Translations under genes and position numbers: made by a program
Shown here: positions 4,920-59,200 of the stretch, piece after piece
How the letters are laid out: the number at the start of each line of letters is the position of its first letter
Position numbering within the stretch: position 1 is the first letter of the stretch
Notes under the pieces: generated by a model
Told to the model about the DNA's origin: nothing
What the model saw: only the letters and a program-made list of their open reading frames with translations
The model's database searches: none
Source: Anadara kagoshimensis
Lineage: Eukaryota; Mollusca; Bivalvia; Arcoida; Arcidae
Assembly: GCA_021292105.1 (NCBI GenBank)
Contig: CM037867.1
Coordinates: 12,734,183-12,798,182 of the forward strand
Length of the DNA stretch: 64,000 bases
Direction: 5' to 3'

Positions 4920-6368
4920 ATTTAACATACTAATCCGTGACATAATCACAATTCTAAATAAAAATAAAAACGAACATACCAATCCATGTCCAAATAATAA
5001 TCCGAAATCAAAATAAAAACAAACATACCAATCCAAGTCCAAATCACAACCCGAAATAAAAGTAAAAACAGACATACCGATCCATGTCTAAATCGCAATC
5101 CCTATGCAAAGTAAAACAAACTCACCATTCAATGACCAAATCGCTATCCGAAATCAAAGTAAAAACAAACATACCAATCCATGTCCAAATCACAATCCGA
5201 AATCAAAATAAAAACAATCGTACCGATCTATGTCTAAATCACATTCCCTAAGCAAAGTAAATCAAACATATCATTCAATGACCAAATTGCAATCCGAAAT
5301 CAAAATAAAAAAAAAAACATGCCAATCCATGTCCAAACCGAATTTGAAATCCAAGTAGAAAAAAATACTAGTAAACCAAACGATGTCCAAATCACAATAT
5401 GAAATCAAGTAAGATAAGCATACTAATAAATGTCCAAATGACAATCCTTAAGTAAAATTAAACAAACATACCAATTCATATCCAAATCACAATCTGAAAT
5501 CAAAGTAAAAACATACAAACCAATCCATGTCCAAATCACAATGCCAAAGCAAAGTAAAAACAAACATACCAACACATGTCCAAATCACAATCCCAAATCA
5601 TATTAAAAACAAACATACCAATCCATATCAAAATCACAATCCCAAATCAAAGAAAAAACAAACATACCAATCCGTGTCCAAACCACAATCCCAAATCAAA
5701 GTAAAAACAAACATACCAATCCATGTCCAAATCAAAATCCCAAATCATATTAAAAACAAACATACCAATCCATATCAAAATCACAGTCCCAAAGCAAAGT
5801 AAAAACAACATGCCAATCCATGTCCAAATCACAATCCGGAATGAAATAAAAACAAACATACGTATCGATGTCCAAATCACATTTCCAAAGCATAGTTAAA
5901 ACAAACCTACCAGTCCATGTCAAAAATCATATTCCGAAATCAACGTAAAAACAAACAAACGTATACATGCCCAAATCACAATCCGAAATTAAGTAAAAAC
6001 GAACATACGACGAACAAACATACCAATCCATGTCAAAATCACAATCCAAAATCAAAATAAAAACAAACATACCAATCCATGTCAAAATCACAATCCGAAA
6101 TCGATTAAATATAATCATACGAATCCATGTCAAAATTACAATCCGAAATCAAAGTAAAAACAAACATACGAACCCATGTTCAAATCACAATCCGAAATCA
6201 TAGTAAAAAAAACGAACATACCAATCTATGTCCAAATCACAATCTGAAATCATAGTTGTTCCAACATAAAAGTAAAAAACAAATATACAAATACATGTCC
6301 AAATCATAATCCGAAATCAAAGTAAAAAACAAACATACCAATCCATGTCCAAATCATAATCCGAAATA

Positions 6369-7698: not shown

Positions 7699-7749
7699 TA
7701 AAAGTAAAAACAAACATACCAATCCATGTCCAAATCACATTCCGAAATA

Positions 7750-8830
7750 AAAGTAAAAAACAAACATACCAATCCATGTCCAAATCATAATCCGAAATCA
7801 AAGTAAACACATCAATCCATGTCCAAATCACATTCCGAATAAAAGCAAAAAAAAAAAAAAAAAAAAACAAACATACCAATCCATGTCCAAATCGTTATCC
7901 AAAAAAGTAAAGAACAAACATACCAATCCATGTCCAAATCACATTCGGAGAAAAAAGTAAAAACACACATACCAATCCATGTCCAAATCACAATCCAAAA
8001 TCAATTAAATTAAAACATAGCAATCTTTGTCCAAATCATAATCCGAAATCAAAGTAAAAAACAACATACCAATCCATGTCTAAATCATAATCCGAAATAA
8101 AAGTAAAAACAATCATACCAATCCATGTCCAAATCACATTCCGAAATAAAAGTAAACAAACAAACATACCAATCCATGTCCAAATCACATTCCGAAATAA
8201 AAGTAAAAAAACATACCAATCCATGTCCAAATCATAATCCGAAATCAAAGTAAACAGACTAATCCATGTCCAAATCACATTCCGAAATAAAAGTAAAAAA
8301 CAAACATACCAATCCATGTCCAAATCATAATCCGAAATCAAAGTAAACACATCAATCCATGTCCAAATCACATTCCGAAATAAAAGCAAAAAAAAAAAAA
8401 ACAAACATACCAATCCATGTCCAAATCGTTATCCAAAAAAGTAAAGAACAAACATACCAATCCATGTCCAAATCACATTCGGAGAAAAAAGTAAAAACAC
8501 ACATACCAATCCATGTCCAAATCACAATCCAAAATCAATTAAATTAAAACATAGCAATCTTTGTCCAAATCATAATCCGAAATCAAAGTAAAAAACAACA
8601 TACCAATCCATGTCTAAATCATAATCCGAAATAAAAGTAAAAACAATCATACCAATCCATGTCCAAATCACATTCCGAAATAAAAGTAAACAAACAAACA
8701 TACCAATCCATGTCCAAATCACATTCCGAAATAAAAGTAAAAAAACATACCAATCCATGTCCAAATCATAATCCGAAATCAAAGTAAACAGACTAATCCA
8801 TGTCCAAATCACATTCCGAAATAAAAGTAA
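7750..8830. repeat. 534-bp higher-order duplication inside the minisatellite
   Basis: About eleven monomers are duplicated as a block: positions near 7755-8290 recur at an offset of 534 bp in 8289-8830, including shared oddities such as a monomer reading GCAATCTTTG (8020 and 8554) and a long A run. Over 80 residues of the chance reverse translations are identical, so the duplication is recent. A further partial copy of the odd monomer lies near 9150. Confidence 0.8.
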
Positions 8831-9275
8831 AAAAATAAACATACCAATCCATGTCCAAATCGTAATCCAAAAAAAGTAAAGAACAAACATACCAATCCAT
8901 GTCCAAATCACATTCCGAGAAAAAAGTAAAAACACACATACCAATCCATGTCCAAATCACATTCCGAAATAAAGTAAAAAAAAAACAACCAAACATACCA
9001 ATCCATGTCCAAATCGTAATCCAAAAAAAAAAATTAAAGAACAAACATACCAATCCATGTCCAAATCACATTCCGAGAAAAAAGTAAAAACACACATACC
9101 AATCCATGTCCAAATCACAATCCAAAATCAAATTAAATTAAAACATAGCAATCTTTGTCCAAATCACAATCCCAAATCAAAGTAAAAACAAACATACCAA
9201 TCCATATCCAAATCAAAATCCGAACTCAAAGTAAAAACTTTTAAACTGACAAATTAAGTTCAACATGTAAACAAT

Positions 9276-35867: not shown

Positions 35868-35897
35868 AGTTTTTTACCCTGTTACATAGTTTTTTGT

Positions 35898-35969
35898 TTA
35901 TATTAAATTAATTTCTCCCATTATATTCACTGGTCTGTTTTTGTATTTCTTCGAAATCTCACTTTCCAT
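35898..35969 (-). CDS. CDK5RAP3: CDK5RAP3 terminal exon 13
   Basis: 72 nt: MESEISKKYKNRPVNIMGEI then NLI and TAA (35898-35900). It matches the conserved vertebrate C-terminus ISKRYSGRPVNLMG. Acceptor TTTTTTTCAG, phase 0. Confidence 0.95.
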   Translation of the reverse strand: MESEISKKYKNRPVNIMGEINLI

Positions 35970-38900
35970 CTGAAAAAAATACAAATAAAATTGTTTAGCT
36001 GGTTCTTGTTTCATATTTAATCATGTTAATGTCAGTCAAGTTAAAACAATGATATCAAAAAGGTTTGTCCATATGCTTTACTTTTTTGCAGAACATGATC
36101 AAAAACCTAAGTATCATGTACTTTAAATTACCATGTACTTTAAATCAAGAAATAAATCCGAGCAAGAAATTAATGCGAAAAATGCGAAGCCCGTTTCATC
36201 GCATTAATTTCTTGTCGCATTAATTTTCTGATTTCGAGAAATTCAATGTAAATTGATTTATCTCCCTTGAACCGGAAGTTGTAATCGTGGTTCATTTATA
36301 AGAACTCCTCTCCTCTGTTAGTTGACGATAATTTGCCATGGTTCTGGTGTAAAGTATTATTAATCTCTTCATAAATTGTCGAAAATTTAGTGATATAAGT
36401 GATTTTCTTGTTGGGAATATAAAAACATTGCCATGTTTGAAACACAATGACTTACAGTGAAACGGGACATTCGTTTTATGCACCAAACGAATTTCTTTGT
36501 GTTGCCAATTCTACTCCAACCCCAAGCGTAATACTTGTAGTAGTTTGTTTCTAAACAAACTACTATGTGTTTCGTTGTTGTGACAATGAGAAACCAACCT
36601 TTTCAATGATTAAAAACCTGTTATAGTTGCATCAACATTTACCGTCGCTACCCTTTGTAAGCTATACCCTGATTATTTTATAAATACTACGGTAGTATCT
36701 ACTCGAAAGTGTATGATTATTACATGTTTATGGAATAATAAACAAGACAATAATTCAACATTTTTTGTTATTTTTACAAGATAAAAGATGGGAAAAGTAA
36801 TTTCTGGAATTTAAAAAAAAATCGCATTAATTTAAATACGCATTTCACAGCAAAATCGGCAATTTGCATTAATTTCATGACACATTAAATTCCAGATTTA
36901 CAGTATATATTTGATGTCCCATAATTCCATGTTCCTTTTATTCTCAAACTCTATTTTACATGTGGCAGGTGTAGCTAGCTCAGCAGGAGGCATCCAGCTT
37001 CTCTTCCCTGTCCGAAGTTCACATGTTTAACTTAATTTGCCATTTTCAAAGTTTTTTCTTTGCTTTTGGATTGTGGTTTGGACATTGATTGGTATGTTTG
37101 TATTCAATAGTTCCCAAAACAGTTAATGATTTATTCACAAAAATATTGGAAATTGGTTTTTTAACATTTTCATGAAATTTTACCATTTCCTTACCTATAA
37201 TACTATAATTAATTTCCCAAAGTGTCATCAACTGCTGCTTAATTTTGTTACAAATATCCTTATCTCAAAACTCCAGATTTAAGCAAAATTCCAAGACATT
37301 TTAGGAAATAAAGGAAGCTCAGCTTTGCTTTTTATTATATGTCAGAATTTGATATCATACTGATTATCTTGAATAAATATGAGTGAATAGATGAGCAAGT
37401 GAAGGAAGAACATTGGGTCTTATATCCAAATCAAGAATATCTAATTACAGTACTGACTTTAAGTGAAAGTGCTTTGCAATGCCCTGATGACAATGAAGAG
37501 CTTCAAGTAATTCACATGCTATGTGTACCATGACAGAAAATAATAACTAATTAGAGATGTTCAATCTATGTCTTTGAATAAACACATGGTGTCATAATAA
37601 TGCATGGCTACAAAAATCAATACCTAACATCTATTGTGACACACACACACACCACAGACATAGAGAGACAATCATGTCATCTTATTTATTTTCACAATAT
37701 TTTAAAATGTAAAAATCTGGCTGAAAAATGGGTACCATTTGATCCACCAAATGTTTGCGAAGAACAATTGTTCCAAATGCAATCAAATCTGTTCTTGTGT
37801 TCTCGTCAAAATGGCATTGAGGCTTTACTGTATATCCTAAAAGTACCAACCATACATTATTTATACCCCGCTTAAAACGTGGGGGTATATAGTGATAGGG
37901 GTGTCTGTCCGTGTGTCTGTCCTTCCTTCCATTACACCTTAGGTAGGGGGGGGGGGGGATTTTTTGTGAGCTTGTGGCCCACAGTTTTTCTAGTTTTTAA
38001 TAGTACTAGTGATACTAATTTGTTGTTTGCATTTCTTTGGTTTTTATCATCTTTATAATGCCAAAACCTGACCAAATAATTGGTGACACTTGAGGCCATA
38101 CCATACACCTTTGTAATACAAACAATGCAATCATGTCTGTTACTATCTATACTTACTTGTTTTTGCATTTCTTTGGTCCTCAGTACAACTATATCTAACT
38201 TTGGTTCCAGTTCCTTCTGTTCCTCTACTGACTGTTTATGTCTATTAACCATGTCCTTCTCATAAAATATCATCTTATCTGCTAGATTTAATGTCTGTTT
38301 CATAGATTCCTTTAATCTATCAACATATCTGAAAGAGAAAATTCAAAACATATTTAAACCTGTTAATACAGTCAACCCTGTCTATAAAGGCAATCCAACA
38401 AAACCATTAAAGTGCTCTGTATGGGCAGGTTCAAATAACATGAATAAACTACTTTTGGGATAGAATTTTAATAGCCTTGAAAAGCAGGTTTTTGGCCCTT
38501 ATGGCCCTTAGTCTACCTTAGAGTCTAACATAGATACCAAACAACAGCCACAATGCTCCCTTCGATTGAAGACTCATTTTTTGACTGGCATTTATTACAA
38601 AAGTTTCTTTGTCTCAAAGATTGATAACTTGATTCAAGATAAGTCAAGCTTTAAATTAGTATTATTTAATCTGTTTAAGATGTAATAAAGGAGCTACTCT
38701 ATCCTGTATATTGCTGCCATAGGGACATACATGTCCTCTAACAATAGCCTGCTACTCTGACATGTGTCTTCTGTCAACAGCATTCCACAGGATACATATG
38801 TCCAATCAATGAAAATGGGAACACTTAATTACATGGCTAAGATATACTTAGCAATATAATCTTTTTGTAAAGTAAGCATAATTGCAAATGTTGAATATTG

Positions 38901-41900
38901 AGATTAAAAACTTATTTACTAAAAAGGTCATATGACTTAAAAACGTCACAACCTATTGTTGATATCATATTAATTCGCATTGTGAATGCAAATTGGCACC
39001 ACCAACGTTGCATTGAAAATCAATATTCTGCAATGTCAACCCTGCTTTGAAATTTAATTTGGCAGCCACAGTGTTATTCAAAATAAGTTAATATTAACAC
39101 ACTTTTAAAACAAAATGCTGTGGTTATCCTTGTTGTCTAAACATCTGTCTTATATAATACACTCTGATATTCTAACAGTGATTTCTACTTGAAATTATGA
39201 TGTAGTTTTAGATGTCATCAATTGAGAAATATAAGAAATACAGAACAGACAAGGCTGTGATAAATCTGTTCATACAGATGGGACAGATGGGCAAAACAGA
39301 AATAATACTGTATCAGAAGAAACATTAGCAGTAGGAGACTTTCACTGTTTTGATCTTCTAACATATTTGGCCATAAAGAATTTTCACAGTATCCATTGTG
39401 GGGAAAGCCTACCAAGGGAGATAAAAAAATTTCACTGAGACAATACATACTCAGTAAAAGAGTCACTGTGAAAATTGCCAATCTTTTTTCTTTGTGAATG
39501 TTTCTTTTTATATGGTTCATTTTGTTTAAACATTATACTAGATCATCTTTTGGACCAGGTGGATAACAGGTGAACTAGACTTGATGTTTAAGAAATCATC
39601 TGAAGACATCTATGTATGACCTTTAGTATGTAACAACAAACCAAACTTCACAATAATAAGAAATCCAATCCCATTTTATAAACCATGATTAAGTACAAAC
39701 AAGAGGCCCATGGGCCTGATACGCTCACCTGATAACTAATGGCTAGCTGATAGATTTAAAGAAAACATAAATACTAAACCCCAATGACTTTTTTCTTTAC
39801 ATCATGATAACCATTGTATCAATACCTACAATATTCTAATATACATGACTATACAAAAAGTTAATAGTTTTCAAGATAATTAACCATTTCAGTATTGTTT
39901 CACATCTGTGACCTTGACCTTTGAACCCATGACCTTTTTCTATACATCAAAATGATCGTTGCATCGATACCTACAACATTCTAATATACATGCCTATACA
40001 AAAAGTTTATAGTTTTCGAGATAATAAAACATTTCGGTTTTGTTTCGCATATGTGACCTTGACCTTTAAACCAATGACCTTTTTCTATACATCAAAATGA
40101 TTGTTGTATCAATACCTACAACATTTAATATACATGCCTATACAAAAAGTTTATAGTTTTCGAGATAATTAACCATTTCGGTTTTGTTTCGCATCTGTGA
40201 CCTTGACCTTTGAACCCATGAACTATTTCTATACATCAAAATGATCGTTGTATCAATACCTACAATATTCTAATATACATGCCTATACAAAAAGTTTATA
40301 GTTTCCGAGATAATTAACCATTTCAGTATTGTTTCACATCTGTGACGTTGACCTTTGAACCCATGACCTATTTCTATACATCAAAATGATCGTTGTATCA
40401 ATACCTACAATATTCTAATATACATGCCTATACAAAAAGTTTATAGTTTTCGAGATAATTAACCATTTCAGTATTGTTTCACATCTGTGACCTTGACCTT
40501 TGAACCCATGACCTTTTTCTATACATCAAAATGATCGTTGTATCGATACCTACAACATTCTAATATACATGCCTATACAAAAAGTTTATAGTTTTCGAGA
40601 TAATAATTATAATCAGAGGTAAAAAAAAATTAGGTCACGACCTTCACAATTGACCTTGACCTCATTTTGAAGATACTAACAAGAAGATGTCAAAACTGAA
40701 AACCCCATGTCATTATCTGGTCAAATAGTCAAGTTATAACAATTTGAAGCTATTTTACGATTTTTTAAAAATTAAACGCAAAAACGCGTAACCTATTTTT
40801 TATCCGAATTTCACAAAATGAACAAACTATAGGCTTAAGACCCTAGAGAAGCCAAATATCACATCAGATTTTTTCTCCAATCAGTACTTTCGGAGAAGAA
40901 GATTTTTTAAGATTTTTGAACCCCTAGGTCACCTTGACCTAGTTATGGTAGCCATAGCAACGCCACGAACAAATCTGAATTGCACCGGCCCATATATACT
41001 TCTGACAAAGTTTCATTAAAAACTGTCTGGTAGTTTCAGAGGAGAAGTCGAAAATAGGTGTTAACGACGCACACACGCACGCACACACGCACGCACATAC
41101 ACACGCTGCGCTATGCCATAAGCTCACATGACCTTCGGTCAGGTGAGCTAAAAAACTAAACAACTTCTCAAATGTTTTATAGAGTTTTTATTTCAATTCT
41201 TATGGTGTTTTTAAGTAATAAAAATGATTTATTTCTAAGAACTTGTTAATCTTTAACTTTGAAATGGTGAAATCCAGAAAATAAATGTAATATTATTTTA
41301 CATGATTTCTTTAAAGCATAAATATTTTTTTGTTGATTCAGCATTATATCATTTTATATCTTTTTATCAAGATAATTAATTAGTGAAAAATACTCATAAA
41401 GAAGAAATACTGGGGCTTATTTATGAGGGAGCAACAGATACGTCTTATAGCAATAACATAAAACTTAAGTAAAGAATTTAAAAAGCGGTCGTAGGTTTAA
41501 CAATCATTTCTTAAGTTTAATCTTTGCAAATTGTGTTTCAAAATGTTCCTTAAAAAGTCAAATAACAATAATTTTCTTATGAATTGTTTTCAAGCACACA
41601 GCATGTACAGGTGGCCTCAATGAAGATCAATTTCATGCATTGAAAATCAGTGTTCAATTCAAAAATTTGTTATTTTATGGACCATTTTCATCCAGACTTT
41701 AAAAAAAAATAAAAAACTTGGGCTACATTAATTTTTTAAAATTTAAAACATGACTTCCAGATCAATTATAATAATTATAACAGCCCAGTCCAGCCCTGCA
41801 TTTTTCTCCTTCCAGTTACAACATACATACCTTGGTGAGTTCCTGATTAACATAAGGTGCTGCATTTTGACTGTTGTAAACTGATCAGAAATGTCCTTGA

Positions 41901-44900
41901 CCTTTTTTATCATTGACTTAAGTGTTGCTGTATCAATTTGTACTGAGGTGGGTGCGTTCTGAAACTGACTAGTAGATATGATATCTCCATCTGTACTCTT
42001 CTGTACTTCAGCAAGTCTCTGAGTCAAAAATGCCTCAAGCTAAAAATAATACAAGAGTTGTTAATAGAGGTTAAAAAAAACTTCAGGTCTAAGGTCATGC
42101 CTCATGCTTCAGGTAAAACAAAGAGTTGTTTCAGGGTTCAAAATTCCCCAGGTCTGAGGTCCAGGAACTAGTAATTTCACCTTGGGCCCTTTGATTTTTA
42201 AACTGTAAAAGTCCAATGGACTGTGGTTTTTTCCAAGATAATGCATCCCTTTCTTTATGATAACATAATTGTATATGGACCTGTAACAATGTTGATGTTG
42301 GTCCTGACAAATTTAAAGGCATAAGGTCCTGGACCTTTTGTTACAAAACAAAATCTTAACCACTGGGTTATGAGAACAACCAAGCTTGCTTTCACATCTA
42401 GTCCATCAAAAAACCTGAATATTGGATGCTAAAACTAGCCTCTAGCTAGACCTACCTTTCAGAATCAAGTTTCAACATTCATTTCTTAACTTGTATTTTC
42501 TATATCTTAAACTTGGCAAAATTTCAAATCTTAAAATTTTTGTTAATTCTAACATGTTTAAGTATATTGAGTCATTTAAGGTGTCCTTTTGAAGATTTCA
42601 ATCTTATAACAATTGTATTCAGTTATTGTCAAAAACATCTTGAAAACAAATTGCGTAAGCAGAAAGACAAAACTAAGAACTCACAACAGCTGTGTTTTAT
42701 CAGTTCTATTATATGGAGCCGAATGCTGGAAAATGACCGAAAAAGATACCAACAAACTTTCCAGCTTTCACAATGGATGCCTTAGAAAGATCATGAGGAT
42801 TTACTGGCCAGCTAGGATTACTAATGAGGAGCTCCATAAAAACACAAACACAGATAATATAAGAACTGTTCTGACAAGATCAAGATGGAGATGGATAGGA
42901 CATGTGCTCAGAAAGCCTATGAATAACATCACAAGAGTTGCTCTCAGATGGACGCCTGAAGGAAAAAGGAAGCAAGGCAGACCCAAAAACACCTGGAGGA
43001 GAACTGTTGAAAAGGAAATGAAAGAACATAGACTAACTTGGGGAGAACTGGAGAGGATGACACAAGATAGAGAAAAAAGTGGAAAACTCTAGTCTTTGCC
43101 CTATGTGCCCCGGGCATAAAAAGGACTAGGTAGGTAGGTATTGTCAAAAACATAAATTATATGTAGTTCCAACAAAGATTGTCAAAATTTGCTAAATTTA
43201 AGTTAAGGAAAATCTTAGCTAAGGAATGATGGTGAAACCGAGGCTTGGTTGCCTATAGGTTTAAAACACACATTTTCAGGCCACAGTGCCTCTCACCAGC
43301 TAGGTTCTAATCCCACTGGGGGCAGGTTCTGTTTACAAGTTTGTCAGTTTATTTAGTGCTACATAGTGTACTCAGTGGTTTTCCTAACATATTGTGGTTC
43401 TGTCAACCATCTCAAAACCATCACTCTCAATACATATGATATTTAGTGAAAGAATCTTGACTGGGTTGTATAAATCTTATAAAGGACATTATTATAAATA
43501 CATATATGGTAGGCAAGTGATATCATTCAACAATATCTACAATACTTCAGTGTTTTCACCATTTGTTAAAAACAGAGGACCCCATCCCTGAAATCTGGAG
43601 GTCATTTTTCAATTTAAAATTTAATTTAAAATTAAAAATGAAGAGAATATTCCGCATGCAGTTGATATTTGTTAAGCCTATTTTATTGAAAACTTGTTTA
43701 ACAGCAACTTTTGGTTGTCTGGATGAACTTGGCTTTGGGTCATCCAGTCTGTAATTTTCTTTAGCCTTATCATTGTTCATACAGTTGTAAACCCTTGAAA
43801 ATGAGTTTTCTCTTTAAAAACACCCTTGAATCTTAGGTCTGGGCCTTTAAAAACACTAGAATTTTGATTAAGAGAGAGAAATAGAATATTTCTGCCAGTA
43901 AAATCGACAGCTTGATGATACCTGCCAGTAAGCTATTGGAAAAAAAGTATTAGAATGGTAAGTCATGGTCATCACAGTGCTTTGTACACATAATGATTAC
44001 ATGTACTTTTAACCAAGCATTTGTATAACACAAAGCAACCAACATGGTTTGAGGCGGGAGTCACCTCATTTTTAATAAATTGGAAATGCATTTTAACCAC
44101 CAATGGTTGACTGAGCCATGTAACATGCAGTGGATTAAATAAATTCAAAAGAAATAAACACATGGTATTATGTTGTTTTCTTTTTTTTCAAGAACAAAGT
44201 AACCGATTTCACTTTTACAAAAATGGTTGCATAAAAAATAACACACAATCCAAATCGAATTGCCTCATCCTTAAAATCATCTGGAGAAAACACTGATGTT
44301 TACTGATCTCTGAACTCTGTTTAGAAAACTTGGTTTATTAAAACATTAAAATTATTTTATTCTCAAATCAGGATTATTGTGGTTTTAAGAAAAGTATTTT
44401 CTTCATTAATGTAGAAAATGAACCAGATTTTAAAACTAAAATTAATTGTTTTACAATTCATCATCTTTGCTTGTTTTAAAATCTGGTTTCATTACTTGAT
44501 GACCCTGGAAAAAATGCTTGTCTCTAACAAAAATAATGCATCAAATCATAAAATATATCATATATATATATAAAGAATTTTACCTCCATCAGATCATCAA
44601 TGAATAAGTTCCTAGTTTTAGGATTGTCCAAAATTGAAAGAGCATCTTCTCCTTTAGCTACACCTTCACCTGTACAAATACAAAACACACAGGAAATAAA
44701 GAAAAAATGAAAGTAACTAAATAAATTAACTGTTCATAAAAATCACCTGCTTCTTAAATTTTATAAACCCTCAAAACTAAGCAAAACTCAATTGTTCAAA
44801 ATATTGCTTTAGGTTGATTTGGTAAAATACATTTTGGTCTTTCTATTTTTTTCATTTCAATATATTAAGAATATTTATATTTCCACAATTTTGGTCCAAG

Positions 44901-47900
44901 CACTACTGATGAAGAATTTTATTCCAAAACAGCCTTCTACTCCTGTCAAATTAAAACATGCTTAGTTATAATTAAGTCTCTTAGGAGACAAATACATCCT
45001 CTTCCCTAACAAAGATTGGACCTTGTAAGAGTGGTCAAATGGGGTTGGGAGACAAATACATCCTCATCCCTAACAAAAGAGTGGTCAAATGGGGTTGGGA
45101 GACAAATACATTCTCATTCGTAACAAAGATTGGACCTTGTAAGAGTGGTCGAATGGGGTTGGGAGACAAATACATTCTCATCCCTAACAAAGATTGGACC
45201 TTGTAAGAATGGTCGAGTGGGGTTGGGAGACAAATACATCCTCATCCCTAAAAAAAGATTGGACCTTGTAAGAATGGTCGAGTGGGGTTGGGAGACAAAT
45301 ACATCCTCATCCCTAAAAAAAGATTGGACCTTGTAAGAATGGTCGAGTGGGGTTGGGAGACAAATACATCCTCATCCCTAACAAAGATTGGACCTTGTAA
45401 GAGTGGTCAAATGGGGTTGGGAGACAAATACATCCTCATTCCTAAAAAAAGATTGGACCTTGTGTGAGTGGTCGATTTTATTTTTTTAATTCATAATTTG
45501 CCTTGTTTTTTTTGTTTTTTTTTTAATTTTGATTCAGAGTTTAATCATAATTTAGATACTTTAAACTATGCCTCAAGTTTTCTTCAAAATTCAACAAACT
45601 TCAAACTGTACAATTACAAGCAACATCATAAATTTTTTACCCAACACTTAATCAAGTGATATTTTCATTTCATCTGAAAATTAAAATAGTTTTTTAAAAA
45701 CTTTTATACTGTTTTAAAAATGTTTTAATCTTGATTAAAATTTGATCAATAAGTTCACTTAAGTTGAACACGTAGACAATAGTCTTTCAAATTTAGAATT
45801 AAAATAAAAAATTTAATCATTTTATTCAATTAAATTGCATTTTGAAAATTAAAACATGGTTTTGTACAACAATAGTTATTCTATAGACATACAATAGATT
45901 GACAACATAAATTTCAAATTCCAAAGCTGGTTCTGTTTCCTGTGTCATACATCATACATAAAGAAACAAAACCCCAAATAATTTATACATCTAGAATCAA
46001 AATTAAATTACTTTGGATTTGCTACATTACATTCTGTAAAACTGATACAAGAAGAATAAATAAGAGCAATTCTTAAAGTGGAAACTCCATTTCTTTTAAC
46101 AGAAGAAATGCAAACCATTTTATTTTTTATAATTTAGGCCACACCATATTTATTTTTTTTAAGTGATTAAAACTGTTATGTTTTTCCTTTTTACACACAT
46201 TTTTCTTTAGGTGATCCGTTATCAACTCAAACTCAAATATCTTTTATGACTTCAATAAATACATTTTTCAATTTTTATTTTGTTAAAAAAAATTATGGTC
46301 ATTGTGAATCTGATGATGTTGAAAAAATGTTTCCCAATTAGAAAAAAGGACCAGTCTCAACATGTGGGGTTTCACCTGGAAATTTTGGACAGGTAGAAGA
46401 TGATTTGAAACTGACCTTGAAAAAAAATTCCCTGAGTTTTCCCTAATGCATGGGAACAATGTTCAGAAATGGCTAAGCAAACAACAGTATCTAGACAAAA
46501 CATATAAGATGGATATTATGTTCAGAGAGAATGGAAAGATAATGGACCCCGAGAAGCTAGCACATAATAATATGGTCTAAAAGACGGGTAACAGGTGATA
46601 GCCTCTTCTGCTAGAAACAGAAGACTTACAGGTAGGTACCTTAAACATAAGTCGATGCCAAATCCACTCTTTTGTAGGATTTCATGTCAGACATTTTCTT
46701 CTGGTTTTTATATCTTATTATCCTTGGGTTTTTATAGACTGTTTTTTCTCAGGATTTAATAGATTAACTAGTTGTCCACAATTTTAAACTAGAGAGCCTA
46801 ATCCCCCCACCCAAAACATCTGCAAGGCTTTAATGTTTTCCTGCAACCTGGACCTTTCTGATATGGCCTAGTTTCAAAGTCATGACACTTTTGGATCATG
46901 AACATTATTCATGTGAAGCTTTATGACGGTCATTAAATAGCAATCAATTTTACACGGACGGACAGACAGACAGATGGACAGATGGGCAGATGGATAGACA
47001 GATGATTCTTATATAATCCCCTTTGTAGGGTGGTATAAATATAGGAATTTTTTTTTGCTATAAAAAGGTTTTGTTTTGAAAGAATTTCTAAGAAATTTGA
47101 AACCAATGGCAATTTTGGCTATCGGGAAAGGTCGGAAACCTAGACTTACCTGAATCTAGTTTATGTTTTTCTACAATAACTGTACCACTAAAATCAATAC
47201 ATTTATCTTCTCCTGAGTGTTCTATATATAGACTGTTTTCCTCGGGTTTATATAGACTAACCTGAATCTGGTTTATGTTTTTCTACAATAACTGCACCAC
47301 TAAAATCAATACATTTATCTTCTCCCGAGTGTTCTATACATTGACTGTTTTCCTCGGGTGTTTAGAGTTGATATAGACTGTTTTCCTCTGGTGTTTAGGG
47401 TTGATATAGACTGTTTTCCTTGAGTTTATATAGACTAACCTGAATCTGGTTTATGTTTTTCTACCATAACTGTATCACTCCAATCAATACTGTTATCTTC
47501 TCCTGAGTGTTCTATATATAGACTGTTCTCCTCGGGTTAATATAGACTAACCTGAATATGGTTTGTTTTTCTACAATAACTGTATCACTCCAATCAATAT
47601 CATTATCTTCTCCTGAGTGTTCTATATATAGACTGTTTTCCTCAAGTGTTTAGGGATGATATAGACTGTTTTCCTCGGTTTATATAGACTAACCTGAATC
47701 TGGTTTGTGTTTTTCTACAATAACTGTATCACTCCAATCAATATCATTATCTTCTCCTGAGTGTTCTATATATAGACTGTTTTCCTCGGGTTTATATAGA
47801 CTAACCTGAATCTGGTTTAAGTTTTTCTACAATAACTGTACCACTCCAATCAATACCGTTATCTTCTGAGTGTTCTATATATAGACTGTTTTCCTCAGGT

Positions 47901-50900
47901 GTTTAGGGATGATATAGACTGTTTTTCTCAGGTGTTTAGGGTTGATATAGACTGGTTTTTTTTCGGTTTATATAGACTAACCTGAATCTGGTTTGTGTTT
48001 TTCTACAATAACTGTATCACTCCAATCAATATCATTATCTTCTCCTGAGTGTTCTATATATAGACTGTTTTCCTCCGGTTTATAAAGACTAACCTGAATC
48101 TGGTTTGTGTTTTCTAAAATAACTGTATCACTCCAATCAATACCATTATCTTATCCTGAGTGTTCTATATATAGACTGTTTTCCTTGGGTGTTTAGGGTT
48201 GATATAGACTGTTTTCCTCAAGTGTTTAGGGATGATATAGACTGTTTTCTCGGTTTATATAGACTAACCTAAATCTGGTTTGTGTTTTTCTACAATAACT
48301 GTATCACTCCAATCAACACCATTATCTTATCCTGAGTGTTCTATATATAGACTGTTTTCCTCGGGTGTTTAGGGTTGATATAGACTGTTTTCCTCAAGTG
48401 TTTAGGGATGATATAGACTGTTTTCTCGGTTTATATAGACTAACCTGAATCTGGTTTGTGTTTTTCTACAATAACTGTATCACTCCAATCAATACCATTA
48501 TCTTCTCCTGAGTGTTCTATATATAGACTGTTTTCCTCTGGTGTTTAGGGTTGATATAGACTGTTTTCCTTGGGTGTTTAGGGTTGATATAGACTGTTTT
48601 CCTCGGGTTTATAAAGACTAACCTGAATCTGGTTTGTGTTTTTCTACAATAACTGTATCACTCCAATCAATGCCATTATCTTCTCCTGAGTGTTCTACCA
48701 TACTTAGATTAGCGGAATCCTGTAACATAACATATTACATATAATAAGGTGATAGTTTGAGATTTAAAGAAATGAATATCATTTTTGTGTTTGTTGCCCA
48801 AAATACATGCCATTAAGACATCAATACTTATCAAAATTTTATTGTCATTTGCCAAATTTACATAAGTTTAATTGTTTGATGGGTAAAAAAATGGAAAAAC
48901 TTGTCAATAAAGTTGCAAAATTTTTCAAAGTTTGCACTTTTTTAACTTAAAAAAAATCAGTCAACCCTTAAATATACACCAAAACCGTAAAGTTATATTT
49001 AACCATTGAACTGTCTAGAAATGGTGTTTATAGTGCTATAACTTATGCCATGCAAATCAAACATAATATGTGCGCACTAGCATGTTTTGATTTGTTTAGT
49101 TTGCATGACAATCACATATAGGCAAAAGAGAAAGGCTTGACGTCATTTTAGCAAATGTAATTATAGGACTTAGTCCTGTAATTACTTTTGGTCTTAAACA
49201 GAGTTTCATATTATAAAATATCACACGTACATGATGTAATACATATATGTAAATATAATCCTGTAAACCAAAATTCAAATGATTTATTTCAAAACTAACT
49301 GATTAAAACATTATTTTCTCAAAATTTGCACTTTTTCTCTAAAAATATAAACAATCGAAAATCAGAAATTAAAACTATAACACAAAACATCTCACCTGAT
49401 TATCTCCCCCTTCCCCAACACCAGTCGTTTCTATGGTGATATCACCAATGTCAAAGTCTATATCTTCACCAAAATCAATGGCTGATTCTGCCAAATTGTC
49501 TCCTGATGAGCCAATGTCGCCCCAATCAATCTAAAAATAAAAATAAATATAAATTCTAACCAGAAATCTAATATTTGACCCCTGCCGTTATTCCTTGACC
49601 TACACGCCTTAATTTTATAAGCAAACATCCCCCATCTTCTATGCACTTGTAGCCAGTTTGATTAAAATCAATTCATAGAGTTAGAAGTCATTAAGCAGAA
49701 ACAATATTGGGACAGTAGACTGAATGATTGAGTGTTATAACTGAAATGGAATGTTCTTTCTAAAGTGTCCTAAAACAAACCGAAACTGGGAAATGCAATC
49801 ATCAATGCCCCATCTACACCACCAAATACTGATTTTGTAAAGTTTCATTATGATGTTAAGATCTGGTAAATTGTTTTTGAGAACAATGACAGGCAAAATA
49901 AATGATAACAGGTAGAAATTTGGAATAAATTGACTAAAAATTGTGTTACTTATTGAGACTGGACCTTCACAACCAAAAATTAAAAAAAAATATCCTGAAG
50001 CCACTTACAGCATCTAAATTATCAGTAACATCTTTCTCATCACTGACATCTATAACCACTGCTGTTTCATCAATTTTGTCTGGTTTTGTACCTGTCCTCC
50101 ATTCATATGTCGTTGTATTACCATTTTTCTGTACATATTTTAAAACTGGAACACATGTGTCCGACAATTCATTGCTTTAATAATAGAAAAATCACAAAAT
50201 TAAATCATTTTTACATTAACAATGGAATAATGGCAATTCTAACATGACCCATGTTTTCCTTCATATAAAACATAAAGAAAGCCAGCTATGGTATAAAAAT
50301 TGATAAACTCATGGTTGTTACAATTTTTATGGCATACTCTTTTACTCATTCTAGATGTCATGTTATGTGTTGCGAACAATGGTTGTGACTTCATTGTCAT
50401 TCATAAAATCATTTATTTCAAGGGAGGTAGTTTCAACAGCTGAACTGTTTCAATGGACCTTTTTGCAAATAAAAAGTAAATGTACTTCCAGATAAAGAGT
50501 TTGCCATGTTTATTTCAATCCATTTTACTGATGTCAAAATGGAAACAATCAACATTTACCCATGGTATATTCTTGTATAATACACAGGTCAGAGTTGACA
50601 TGTGGAAGAATATATCACAAGGTGGCTTCCCCAGTGAGTGATATATTTGCCGCATGTTAAATGTTGTTTTGTTGACAGTAACAAATATTCATATCTCACT
50701 CACTCAAAGGCAATAATAAATGTATAAAGTCTTGGCTAGATCCTTTTTTTTTTAGAAGAGGGATATATATTTTTGTCCTTTGTTGCAGAGAATCATGACA
50801 AACATAAAACAGTTTTTAATATGCATCAACCTAGGATTTTCATCACCAAATTTGGTTCTATTTGGCCTAAAAGTTTAAGGAGAAAATTTGAAAGAATTGG

Positions 50901-53900
50901 TGTAGAACAACAACACCACTCAAATATATGAGAAGCTGAGGAATATGAAAAACAAAAGGCCCAATAGGGCCTGTAATGCTCACCTGGGCCGTTAACAGCA
51001 CAAAAACACAATAAATACTACATTTAAGGAGCAATAACTCTGATGTGGATATTTAGATATTTATGAAACTTGCTACTTGCATCTGTGACCTTGACCTTCG
51101 AACCAATGACCATAATCTATATATCAAAATGATGATTGCATCAATACCAACAATATTCTAATATACATGCCTATACAAAATGTTTACAGTTTTCAAGATA
51201 ATTAAAGATTTTGGCATTGTTTTGCTACTGTGACCTTGACCTTTGGACCCATGACCTTTTTCTATACATCAAAATGATCATTGTATCAATACCTACAACA
51301 TTCTAATATACATGCCTATACAAAAAGTTAATAGTTTTCAAGATAATGAACCATTTCAGTTTTCTTTCGCATCTGTGACCTTGACCTTTGCACCAATGAC
51401 CTAAATCTATATATCAAAATAATCATTACATCAATACCAACAATATTCTAATATACATGCCTATATAAAAAGTTTATAGTTTTCGAGATAAAAAATAATA
51501 TTAGAAAGGTAAAAAATTAGGTCATGACCTTCATAATTGACCTTAACACCATTTTGAAGGTAATTACAAGTATATGTCAAAACTGAAAACCCCATGTCAT
51601 TATCTGGTCATATAGTCAAGTTATAACAATTTAAAAATATATTACGATTTTTGCAAAATTAAACGCAAAAATGCCTAACCTATTTTTAAACCAAATTTCA
51701 TGAATAGAACAAACTTAAAGGTTAAGACTATGTAGAATCCAAATATCACATCAGTTTTTGCCTCCAATGAGTGGTTCAAGAGAAAAAGATTTTTTTAGGT
51801 TTTGTCTATTTTTAGTAACAGTGGCCATCTTGGATATTAGATCATCATGATTTGAACAAACTATAGTTAGACTCTGTCAAGGACCTTCCATGGCAAATTT
51901 GGTTTCAGTTAGCCCAGTAGTTTCGGAGGAGAAGATTAAAGTTTACTGACGCATGCACGCACGCCTCGCCATGCCATAAGCTCACATGGCCTTTGGCCAG
52001 GTGAGCTAAAAATTCAAGTGCTAAATTGAAATTTAATCTTAGCAATCAAAGATTTACAGCCATATATATTCTACTCAGCCGAAAATACAATTCCAAATTC
52101 AAAAACATGTTTATCTATATAAACAGCCTCAGTTAAATGAACAAAGGATTTCAATTTATGCTATGTAACACAATACTTTATAAAGAGTATATAAATTTCA
52201 CTGAACAAAAGCACATAAAAAAATCTCACAGTTAAAGATTTGATAGAAGAAATTAAAATTTCTAATTGTTCCTCTTTAAAGTAACTTGAGACAATTTTAC
52301 ACCCACAATGATGTGAAACTTAGCCTTAAAATCTGTCAACATTCAAACACAATATATGTCTGTGTATCATACATTTTACAACAGTAAAAACATCGACATA
52401 GTTCTATACTTCTTAAATATTAGACATCTTTAGTAAGCCTTAGGGTTGTATTGGGACATCTTAAGTCTGTACTGTTGTGTTACAGGATCACATTATGCTA
52501 CTCCAATATACATGTACTTACAGAAGCATATAATATAGACCACATTCTAAAACCATGAATCTCTAAAAATCTCAGTTTTTAATTTTTGTCAATTCACCTA
52601 TAGCTGGTAAAATCTTGATATAAGTGAAATATTCTGCAGGTGACATCTTGATATAAGTAAAATATTCTTGACTGATGGATAGCCCCAATTCAATCACTTA
52701 AAGGCTCATACCTAACTTATACCTGACTTACAAGTATTAGAAGTTGTTATAATATTAAAGACTATAAAATTTCTTCTTATTCTTTATTCTTACAACTTAA
52801 TATACACAACTACCTATGCTGTATCGTGGCTGTGTCATACTGACCAGAACACTCATACTCTACTGGTACATTGGTAATCACAAAGTCAGCTATCAGTGTC
52901 AAGGGAGATAACCCACATTAAACTCTAATCCCATGCACTTGACAATCAAATACATACCATACATAGCATAACAACAGATGCCTACATATGAATGGCTGAT
53001 TGAGAAATTTTTTTAAGCGGGTTGATTTTTCACACTAAGTTCTACAAGAACCAATTTAACCCTAGCTGATGGTCAAAGTGATACATAAGCTATCAGTTTG
53101 GACCATTTGACAACCTAGGGCAAATCAGCAGCCAAGAATACACATAACAGAATGTATGATATCAAATATTTTGTTTGCCTAAACATGCTTAAGTTACTAC
53201 TAAATAAAGATAGTTTCCCCATGAGAAAAATTATTAAATATTTCCCCATTTGACCCCCAAAATTCCCCAAACAACAAACAGCAGTAACTAGAAAAAAATC
53301 TAGTTGTCCTTACCCACAAAATGATAGGTATTGTTACAGTATAACATCTTTGAAATGAGGATCCTAAGCTATTGCAAGCATATTATTATACAGTTCTCTT
53401 TATTTCAGAACTTCAAATTTTCCCAATTTAAAGGCATAGGATAGGTTTTTTTTAAATGTAACAAAATCACTGGATATAAAAAAGTTAAAATATGATATCA
53501 TCAAGATATGAGCCCCACATATTTACCAAACTCTGAACATAATGTCTAAATGGTGTACAGAGGTGTGATTGGCTGATGTTTATTTTTCAGTACATAATCA
53601 TCTAGACAGCAACTTTCTACATTGGTTGTTTCCACTCCTTATAGCCAAAACCGTCAAGTTTAGTTTTTATTGCTACCAGTTTCTCTGTGCCCAGTAAAAT
53701 TGTTGTTTACATAACATAAAACCAATTATTACAGTTACACTTGTATATAAAGACCATCAACTGGGAAATATTGACTTCATGGACAGGTGGTCTTTACACA
53801 GAGGTTCTTTTTATATGAAATGTGAAGAATAGACTATCAGACACTGGTCTTAATGGACAGGTGGTCTTTATATAAAGCTATATTTGGTTGGAATTTGAAA

Positions 53901-54710
53901 CAATTAAAATTATAGCTATTTATGGACATGTGACCTTAATACAGACTCTGAGGTTCTTTTTTAATAAAATATGAAAGAAAATTACTTTAAAACACTAGCC
54001 ATAATATACAGATGCCCTTTACATAGAGGTCTTTTTGGTTGGAATTTGAAGCAAAATTAATTTAAAATACTTTGACAGGTAGCCATACAGGCTCTTTCTG
54101 AATGTTAATATGAAATATGAAGGAAACCAACTTTAAAACACTGGTCTTAATGAACGGGTGGTCTTTACATAGAGGTTCTTTTGGTTGTAATCTGAAGCAA
54201 AATTAATACTGCCCTTAATTGACAGGCGGTCATTATGTGGATGTACTTTTTATTTTAAATATGAAACCAAGGGTACCTGACAGGTGGCTTTATATTGCAG
54301 TTGTTTTTGAAAAACGAAGCAAAGGACCACTATAGCAGGTCTTATGACACCCTTTACATCCAGAGTAATATCTGTGTCGTTTCTTTTTGTATATTTTAAC
54401 ATAGAGGACAAGAATCTTAAAGTAGGAAGCAAGTTTAGAGTAACATGTACCACAGAAACATATTTACAAAATGTAAAACTTAGTAACTGGAAGTAGGCGA
54501 CAAACTTAGGACAAATCCAAAAAAGTAGCAGACAATTTTTCTTGCCTTACTGGCTTTATTGAAACCACTGTTGTTTGGCTGATGTTTAAGATATCTAAAG
54601 CTAATTTTACCATCAGTATGGCTCATTTAATCAAACCACTGATAGTGCTGATTGTAGGAAAGTAGTGATGATGATGGTGGTGGTTCTGCTGTTGCCGATG
54701 ATGATGATTA

Positions 54711-54749
<39 letters not shown>

Positions 54750-56238
54750 GGAATGTGACACGAGTAGTTATGCTGCTGCTGCTACAGCTACTGATGAAGA
54801 TAGTGAGGATGAACATGATTTCATTATGTTGATGATGATGATGTGACATGAGAAGTTCTGATGAAGACAATGAATGATGATGATGCCTATGATGATGATA
54901 ACAGTGTTGGTGACATGAGTTCTGCTACTGATGATTATGATGATGATGAAGATGGTTTTTCTTGCCTTACTGGCTTTATTGAAACCACTGTTGTTTGGTT
55001 GATGTTCAGGATACCCAAAGATTGTTTTACCATCAGTTTAGCTCATTTAAAAACAAAGAGATATCATGTCCATCAAAAACAAACATACCAATTCATGTCC
55101 ACATCACAATCCCAAAGCAAAGTAAAAACTTTGAAACTGGAAAATAAGGTAAAACATGTGAACTTTCACAAGGAAAGTGAGGGTGGCTGCTCTGGAAGGG
55201 TAAGCACCTCCTGTTTAGCTAGCTACATCTGTCTTGCATTTTCAAAATTGAGAAGGAAAGGAATATGGAACTAAAGGACACCATATATACCAAGGGTAAT
55301 TTTGGAGATATCATAAAACATTGTGATGATGGCTTCAAACTTTTTAAAAGGCATTGATAAGCCTAGGTTGGCAATAGACTAATAGAGTATAAAATCTGAA
55401 AATTAAATCCACAAAAAATAATAAAAACAGATAATAGAGCAACTTACCTATTCATAATAAAATTAACAAAATTTCCATAAAATGTCACAGCATCTTGTAA
55501 ACTGTCTGTAGATTTGGCAATTTTACTAAACACATCTGGCAAATCAGATAGAAGTGCAACTAATTCTGACTTGATTTTCTTACCCTGTATAAATGAAATA
55601 AAAGAAAAGGATATTAATAAATGCGGCTTTGTGGGTTTTTTTAAAAAAAAAAAAAAAAAAAACTTTATCCTTGTCTCTTTGGCTAAGATTAATCTTAAGA
55701 TTTGCCAACATTAAATTAGATGACATTAAAAACTAAGGAGTGAACCAAAGAACAGTAAATTCCACCAGGGATGGGTAACTCAAAGCTCTCTTAACAGTTA
55801 CGAATACTTAACGCCTACTTACGAAACTCGTAGAATAAAATCAGGTAACTTGAAACAATCGTAAGTAAGGTAGTCATCGTAATGTGTTCTTAACTTACGA
55901 CAGCGGAATACCTCTCTTAGACCATACTTAGCGTAACGTTGCACATTCAAACAAGTGATTTACACATCAATTGCATGTGTTTTAGTTATTATTTCATTTT
56001 GACAACATCAATTAAAGTTTCTATTATGATGTTGATAAATTCTTTTAAAAAATAAACATTAAAGTGACTGTGTTTTTAAAACATCAATGGTTTCTTTCAA
56101 TATTATAATAATATTTTGATAATAATTATTAAATTAAAATTTAATTGTAACAACGTTAGTTCTTAACTTATGCTTAAAACCGTAAGCATATGTCTACCTT
56201 GAGTTATTTAATATTACATGTATATAAGAGAGAGAGAG

Positions 56239-56276
<38 letters not shown>

Positions 56277-59200
56277 TTGGACCGTAATCTTTATGGACAA
56301 TGAAATTAATATTTATGAATGACATAAAGATCAACATGTGTAGCATTTCATACTACATCAAAATTGTTTGTTAGTAATTCCTTCTCTGGATATTTTTTCA
56401 CAGCAGAATTTAACCATTTCATGTTGAATACTGGTATTTTAGCGTGCGTCTTAAGTCAAAATTATCCCATGTCTATGTGTATTTTCCATAATATTTAACA
56501 AAGTGACTTGTGTATGACATAGAATTATTTATGGATGCAGATTTCATGTAAACTACAGATCTGTCCATGCAAGCATGCTCTCTTGAAAGGTGTATAATGT
56601 ATCTAACATTACAAAAAACCCCAAAACTTTTGACAAATTTGCTTCAAGAATTTTCCATTTTGAAACTTGATTATTGTTATATGACATCACAGTATTTTGT
56701 TATTACAAATGATTGTTTAATCAAATCAGGACAGAGAAAACACAGTTAAAAGAAAACCAAGGGTATGTCACAATAAATTTTATAAACCATACTTTTCCTA
56801 TTCCAAAATGAACCAACCTAACTTCCATGCCCATTTCAATACTTTTTAGATCCAGAGAAAGAGAGAGAGAGAGATTTGCACTAGAAGTATCGGTGAAACT
56901 AATTGCAAAATTGTGAAAACATAGATAAGTGCGGGATTTTTTCGTAAAGTATGTGAGCCGATGGAAACTATAATTTAATTTCACGCTGAAAATTCACATA
57001 TTTAAGTGTACATTGTGTTTTCAAACTACTTCATTACTTTATGGGGTTTTCATAGTTTAATAGGCCCACTTCGAAATGCAGTGGATATTTTTTACCCTGT
57101 TCGAAAAGTTGCCATTTAGTTTAGTGACTTTTTGCTGTATTTCTTTTGACTGTCATTTAATTTTTTTGTAAGTTCTATTGTTGCGAAAGTAATTACAGGG
57201 TAACCCAACATTAGAAGAAACTATGAAGAAGTAAAAGAAAAACATTGTATTTTGCAGAATATAATTACGGAACGAATTCGTAACTCTACACGTAAACTGT
57301 GATCGTAAGTACGCGTTAAGAACGGTTCGAGTTACCCGTGTAAATCTGTCGCAGTATAAACTTACGATCGTCGTAACATCTACTTACGAATCATATTTAA
57401 GATTGCTTCGAGTTACCCACCCCAGATGTGTATGAATGCATCATTTATAAAGTCTGTCCAGTAAATTTAACACAGAATAGTATATTTATGCAGATATTGG
57501 AATTATGACAAAAACTCTATTGCACTTTGTGCAGGCAACCCAAACCAAGGGTTTAATAGGCCTTAAACCTTTTTTATAATTCATGTAAATGGTTTTTTTG
57601 TTTGTGAATGGTGATTTCAAAAGAATACAAGATTGAACAGAAGACATCCAATAAGAAATATCAATTGGGACTATTTGTGTTATTTGCACATTCTTAAGTC
57701 TCATACACTGTTACAGAACTATATACAATTTAACAAATCAGCGAAAAATAGTGTTAGTCGTTGAAAATAGATTCATATATTCCATCCCTGATGGCAGAAG
57801 GTTTATATAAATAACGCATATAGGTGTAAGTAGCATATCACTGTATGTGTATAATCACCCCAGCACACTTTATTCATTAAAATTACCCCATTAATATGTA
57901 AATAGACTCGCTGTATACTCAAACAAAGGCAATAAACTGTTTATTATACCGAGAAATAACCATTGTAATAAGAGACATAAAGAAAGAAAATATTTAAAAA
58001 GACGTCTGAAAACATCAGTCATTCTCCGATTCAATTTTTTTCCTATCGGAACTCATCGGAGGCAAACGCTAGAACGTCAAGATTGATTCTCCATCGATGA
58101 CGTCATATCATTGTGACGTCAGGGTGTGTTCCGAAGAGGTGGGGTATGATATTTTCAGAGGGATACAAGATGTTTTCTCCACCCTGATCACATGACCCAA
58201 CGATCCAATCAAATTACAGATAGCATCGTATTTTTCTAATGAGGTATAATAAATGAATATATTACCTCTATTCCCATCTGTTTACATGTAGTGTCATACT
58301 TTTTACGAAGTTCCACAGCTTTTGCAGCATACTCTGCTTCTTTTCTGTCACAATCCTATAATATATATTGTTTTATCACATTAAAATCTAGCAACAATTT
58401 ACAATAAAACCTTGATTTATTACAATCAATTGTAAATTCATTAAATATGTACCATTTATATGACCTACTTTTTAAATATGTGCCACTAACACATACTTAC
58501 CTACTCTTTCTTGAGATTAGTAGTAAGTTCATGTAAATTATGATCATAAGTTTACAACATCAGTCTCAAGGATTCCTGTATTTGACTTGACAAAACATTC
58601 ATATTCTGTATATATATTCCAAATGTGTCAATAAAATTTATCCTTTGTGTGAGGCAATTTTATATATAAAAAACTTAAAAATAAATTAAAATGGTTTCTA
58701 AAATATAACTGAATCTATTCTTTGTAAAACATGTTTCACCTTTGTGTACAGTTCTTCTTGTTGCATATAAAGTTTATATATATACTTTTCAACATTGTAT
58801 ACATGACTTACTTTTTGTGTTTGCTGACATTTTGCAATCTGTTTTTTCAGTGCTGTTACCTCATAGTTCACATTTCTTGTCAACATCTGAGCTGTCTCAG
58901 CTGAGATAAAGAAAAGATGTTGTTATAATTATCTAACAATTGAACTGTCTAAAAATAAATTTTATTCTGAAATTACTTCCAAGTAATACATACATATTAT
59001 ATACACAGTGTGTATGTACAACCCTTAGTATCAGGTCGAGTCCTTTTTTCGTAGTCGTATCACGAGTCGCGCTTGTGCAACGAATAATATTACAACTACG
59101 AAAAAAGGACGAGACCTGATATGAAGGGTTGTACATACACATTGTGTATATGATATTTTTATCTAACATTTCTAATTAGGTTATTTAAAATAATAAAAAA

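Follow-up and report, generated by a model that had tools for sequence, protein, structure and literature searches.

The protein CDK5RAP3 (C53) contains shuffled ATG8-interacting motifs (sAIMs). According to passages of PMC10183829, their consensus is IDWG/D, UFM1 is bound mainly via sAIM1 and sAIM2, and conversion of the motif type shifts the balance between UFM1 and ATG8. A CDK5RAP3 gene was identified in a stretch of 64,000 nucleotides (nt) of the Anadara kagoshimensis genome (the window, positions 12734183-12798182 of its contig). Intron 10 of this gene contains ten tandem copies of the last 72 nt of exon 10, the exon that encodes an IDWS motif. The array is very probably an intronic compound minisatellite, i.e., a variable number tandem repeat (VNTR), which was born from an exon fragment, drifts neutrally and is most likely spliced out. 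As in the system described in those passages, the IDWS of the exon is the most C-terminal sAIM-like motif. It departs from the published consensus, however, and the extra copies are known here as DNA only.

Tandem exon duplication, including that of mutually exclusive exons as in Dscam1, is described in sections of PMC9013439 and likewise produces adjoining, phase-symmetric exon copies within one gene. In the present locus, by contrast, copying was restricted to the 3' part of the exon and left out its acceptor, and no sign of coding constraint or inclusion was found in the copies. Intronic minisatellites and VNTRs share with the array head-to-tail units, a length difference between versions, near-identical spacers (here of a 33-bp unit) and decay of the copies. 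They differ in that the unit here includes 75 nt of a real exon together with its donor, which is why the copies look like exons. Ultra-short introns are a further point of comparison, since the 40-nt spacers of the array lie within the 37-65 nt range covered in excerpts of PMC4463651, where inefficient splice sites are also reported. In the same excerpts, splicing evidence is given for 15 introns, 12 of which are G-rich, and lengths are conserved, whereas the spacers of the array lack such G-richness and range in length from 40 to 107 nt. A literature search for the array returned no item mentioning CDK5RAP3 among the matches listed.

The CDK5RAP3 gene and the array in intron 10

A 13-exon model (E2-E14) was constructed, the translation of which comprises 512 residues and matches PF05600 over profile positions 15-502 of 502 (Pfam profile search, E 1e-162). 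The full-length match and the sAIM-like IDW/F motifs of the central region identify the product as CDK5RAP3, in agreement with an earlier note on this DNA. The gene spans approximately 30 kb, and its exon 1 is located approximately 1.5 kb outside the window end. The exon at 48719-48623, which the earlier note called exon 9, is therefore counted here as exon 10. The limits proposed for it were borne out by the same protein stretch in a database protein, P0001. The proposed sAIM-like motif was also recovered: GIDWSD of exon 10 aligns with the third human IDWG, and a single I/V-x-W/Y motif occurs at this position in 22 of 22 near-complete relatives (alignment read by eye). These relatives were picked from 122 fetched proteins; 16 of them are named as mollusc or brachiopod, and P0001 is among the other six. 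A 23rd row of the alignment, P0121, is partial and lacks the motif.

Intron 10 is 3953 nt long, and the array extends within it from 48516 down to 47150 (Table 1). The ten further copies were present as previously claimed, as were the seven open copies, which together would add 167 residues, and the single copy of 69 nt (c5). The claim that eight copies are exactly 72 nt long applies only when the exon itself is counted, the number among the further copies being seven of ten. An IDW(S)-type repeat is found in five of the seven open copies, all reading IDWS, whereas the distal copies c9 and c10 read IDFS. The ten spacers measure, in order, 106, 104, 104, 40, 107, 40, 72, 40, 106 and 40 nt and consist of the 33-bp unit. 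The array is far above chance, with a Tandem Repeats Finder score of up to 1143 within it. The same program returned 47 overlapping rows for the window, this array included, and other tandem repeats are abundant. A 115-nt reference matched at ≥60% in 13 places, two of which are offset by the 33-bp unit.

Table 1. Positions of CDK5RAP3 features and of the exon 10 copies in the window
Feature	Position	Strand	Description
CDK5RAP3 gene, exons 2-14 of 14	35897..61896	minus	13-exon model E2-E14
Exon 9	49396..49530	minus	IDWG and IDFG (first sAIM-like motifs)
Exon 10 (exon 9 of the earlier note)	48623..48719	minus	DSANLSMVEHSGEDNGIDWSDTVIVEKHKPDS; acceptor ttacag; donor CAG followed by GTTAGT; phase 0 in, 1 out; same stretch in P0001
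First spacer	48517..48622	minus	106 nt, made of 33-bp unit
Copy c1	48445..48516	minus	72 nt, open, IDWS; peptide identical to that of the exon
Copy c2	48269..48340	minus	72 nt, TAA stop
Copy c3	48094..48164	minus	71 nt, TAA stop and frameshift
Copy c4	47982..48053	minus	72 nt, open, IDWS; preceding spacer 40 nt
Copy c5	47806..47874	minus	69 nt, open, IDWS
Copy c6	47694..47765	minus	72 nt, open, IDWS; preceding spacer 40 nt
Copy c7	47552..47621	minus	70 nt, frameshift
Copy c8	47440..47511	minus	72 nt, open, IDWS; preceding spacer 40 nt
Copy c9	47262..47333	minus	72 nt, open, IDFS
Copy c10	47150..47221	minus	72 nt, open, IDFS; preceding spacer 40 nt; sole copy with donor GTAAGT
Exon 11	44584..44669	minus	joined to exon 10 in P0001

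A dispersed mobile element was considered as the source of the unit and rejected, as exon and spacer queries matched just two CDK5RAP3 loci in the 1.1-Gb genome (at least 17 places for the exon query and at least 14 for the 106-nt first-spacer query, common words being skipped). Diverged spacer-like sequence (63-77% identity), which is a possible source of the spacer, was observed at 46703-46768, 0.4 kb past the array. The same intron also contains a second minisatellite at 44984-45475, with about six units of about 64 bp.

Two versions of the locus

A second CDK5RAP3 is located on the same contig (C11), 1.67 Mb away. The two versions show 97.7-100% identity over E2-E13, and E14 is identical. 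The doubled segment comprises approximately 100 kb (11036000-11163968 and 12716503-12817075). Its collinear blocks, which are 88-99.8% identical when repeat arrays are left aside and are separated by unaligned gaps of up to about 16 kb, span the whole of the second region as fetched. The array of the second version contains five further copies, compared with ten in the window, so that in the one assembly searched the head-to-tail units differ in number between versions, as in a VNTR. In the second version, the tryptophan codon of IDW is replaced by TAG in copies c1 and c3, c2 is open with its GT lost and an insert with terminal inverted repeats adjoining, and c4 and c5 are open. The insert at the c2 donor (about 11110290-11111567) is approximately 1.3 kb long; its terminal inverted repeats measure approximately 22 nt, and TA is its probable target-site duplication.

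The two versions probably represent two alleles that the assembler did not merge. A true segmental duplication, under which the species would have two CDK5RAP3 genes and an array in each of them, is a considerably less likely explanation, although the coding sequence is open over exons 2-13 in both copies and the long collinear blocks lie on one contig. That collinearity continues across the entire second region fetched, with the gaps and identities given above, argues against it. So do two other probes of the contig, which are also doubled and fit retained haplotypes. One of these has an inverted second copy at a distance of 0.6 Mb (93%); a short dispersed repeat occurs in only one of the two copies. 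The other has a second copy (88-96%) 1.3 Mb away inside a local tandem cluster and provides weaker evidence. The doubling suggests that both haplotypes are represented in the assembly here; should the duplication be true, the array would be read in the same way.

Splice signals, substitutions and alternative explanations

All ten copies have the AG/GT borders and the 1-1 phase that had been ascribed to them, but the AG is exonic sequence and not an acquired acceptor. Homology to the exon starts in most copies at TAG (query position 23), inside the exon codons GTA-GAA, and the AG is thus exon-internal sequence carried along (TAGAACAC). The AG and the phase of each copy are therefore explained by where the duplication breakpoint fell within the exon. 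Acceptors were scored with a position matrix derived from the gene's own 13 acceptors (leave-one-out scores for those 13), which, being small and simple, provides a ranking and not a splicing prediction. In this ranking the copies score from -6.0 to -6.5, compared with -2.2 to 14.9 for the 13 gene acceptors, and 483 of the 1097 background intronic AGs of the gene score above -6; by this matrix of 13 sites, the copies do not have recognisable acceptors. Recognisable donors are present at every copy, with GTTAGT as in the exon in nine of the ten and GTAAGT in the remaining one. The GTAAGT donor of c10 runs into unique intron, as does that of the last copy of the second locus.

The substitution pattern was determined from the 15 further copies of both loci, in which substitutions were counted as distinct derived states relative to the consensus and not on a tree. 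The 23 distinct substitutions comprise 3 synonymous, 18 nonsynonymous and 2 stop changes, and random placement of the same base changes gives 3.5 synonymous changes and 2.1 stops expected without selection. Coding constraint was accordingly not detected in the copies (3 synonymous to 20 nonsynonymous or stop). Between the two loci, in contrast, the coding exons E2-E13 differ at 11 of 1467 nt, with 10 synonymous changes and 1 nonsynonymous change (Fisher P = 2e-5 for copies against coding exons). When only the ten open copies are considered, 3 synonymous and 13 nonsynonymous substitutions remain (P = 3e-4).

These results are consistent with the following course of events. A segment containing the last 75 nt of exon 10 and the donor would have been duplicated along with neighbouring intron DNA, and would then have expanded and contracted, together with the 33-bp spacer unit, probably via unequal exchange or slippage. 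The real acceptor would have stayed with exon 10, and the original GTAAGT donor probably stayed with the last copy. Splicing in this animal most likely bypasses every copy and links exon 10 directly with exon 11, so that the copies would be transcribed as intron, removed and left to drift neutrally. Such drift would explain why some copies are open, others carry stops or frameshifts, and their number is unequal between versions.

An effect of the copies on splicing or expression, through poison transcripts or slowed splicing of exon 10, with allele length modulating the dose of CDK5RAP3, is very improbable. Poison transcripts could arise from occasional inclusion of c2, c3 or c7, or from use of a CAG located 11 nt upstream of every copy. 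If used, this CAG would place a stop at codon four in each of the ten cases (V-Y-I-stop, or V-N-V-stop in c9), and retention of any of the ten spacers would give Gly-stop in the frame of the exon. The unequal array length of the two versions would also suit such a model. However, the upstream CAG sites score from -13.5 to -23.1, which is worse than the AGs of the copies, and the tests made here showed no constraint on the array.

The proposal of the earlier note that the copies are spliced in and tune UFMylation against endoplasmic reticulum (ER)-phagy is not supported by these results. Under this proposal the open copies would be cassette exons, so that the number of sAIM-like motifs in the disordered region of CDK5RAP3 would vary and tune the binding of UFM1 versus ATG8. 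The open frames, borders, phase and well-scoring donors are what it would lead one to expect, and motif number is variable among animal CDK5RAP3 proteins generally. Its premise that the number and type of motifs set the UFM1/ATG8 balance agrees with passages of PMC10183829 as far as type is concerned, since conversion shifts the balance; for number, those passages contained no supporting statement. Acceptors at background level and the neutral substitution pattern argue against inclusion, and including all seven open copies would require two 40-nt introns (c5-c6 and c9-c10). The second array is shorter and more broken, with the motif tryptophan changed to a stop in two of its five copies, and the motif is single at this place in the 22 near-complete relatives.

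The database proteins matched also lacked the extra copies. P0001 (530 residues, 99% identical) has exon 10 joined directly to exon 11 (PDS-GEGVAK), with no copy. Its source contig is at most 2605 nt long, compared with a gene of approximately 30 kb, and the protein was thus presumably derived from spliced RNA. A copy-bearing query, scored against the 7999 candidates with the most words in common, matched P0001, with no extra copy. A second such query, with 952 candidates, matched two short proteins, one a partial sequence from Tegillarca granosa and the other 49% identical, neither of which has an extra copy. Among the 122 fetched proteins, internal 12-residue similarity of ≥9 was found in six, of which P0054, P0057, P0089 and P0101 represent repeats of IDW/IDF-type motifs, and none of the six is a repeat of the exon 10 unit. 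Taken with the acceptors and substitutions, these data make cassette exons very unlikely.

Several observations nevertheless weigh against an array that is merely drifting and always removed. The donors are good, being exactly the exon's own in eight of the ten copies; seven copies are open, and the peptide of c1 is still that of the exon. One acceptor of the gene itself (exon 6) is likewise weak (-2.2). Parts of PMC4463651 report splicing of some human introns that are 37-65 nt long and have inefficient splice sites, and of 43-nt introns in human cells, and therefore short length and weak signals alone are no proof. Diversity (pi) is 0.030-0.035 at the spacer ends and 0.075 in the exon part (array of the window, few sites), which could hint at constraint on the splice flanks. 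P0001 differs from both versions at three residues, so that its source, with whatever array it may have, would be another animal or a sister species. A rare isoform could be hidden, because scoring was limited to these 7999 candidates and database entries were clustered at 90% identity. In addition, the 122 fetched relatives have between 0 and 8 IDW/IDF-type motifs each, according to a simple pattern whose hits include a place outside the disordered region, and motif number therefore varies in the family at large.

The partial protein P0121 of Tegillarca granosa shows 79% identity to the model of the window over 182 columns, gaps counted (14 mismatches, 2 gaps), and 63% to Pinctada. In its annotation, EDNG is joined directly to the next exon and the IDWS part is absent. 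At the position of this junction, most copies of the window have GGT (a cryptic GT in phase 1), whereas the exon has GGC. The lack of the IDWS part may reflect an error of annotation, or it may hint that Tegillarca granosa has an array.

Other minisatellites and significance of the array

A large 49-bp minisatellite occurs in the window at 4924-6367 and 7699-9238. On the minus strand, many of its units contain the donor-like sequence GATTTGGACATGGATTG followed by GTATGT, mostly without an acceptor AG. An exon origin was considered for these 49-bp arrays (4.9-9.2 kb) and rejected, as most units lack the AG acceptor and no anchoring exon was seen (inspected by eye, in parts).

Low-level inclusion of single copies in some tissues or under ER stress, above all of c1, whose peptide equals that of the exon, is very doubtful. 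If it occurred, it would yield CDK5RAP3 with one or two extra IDWS units. Allele length would then constitute a naturally occurring polymorphism of the ER-phagy/UFMylation switch, with the UFM1/ATG8 docking region varying in length. As a compound minisatellite, the array neatly illustrates how exon look-alikes, convincing though probably unused, with open frames, GT/AG borders and matching phase, arise when a piece of an exon is trapped in a minisatellite. Such arrays can be separated from real families of exons by acceptor strength relative to background AGs, by the within-array ratio of nonsynonymous to synonymous changes, by the state of the second version of the locus, and by spacer length.

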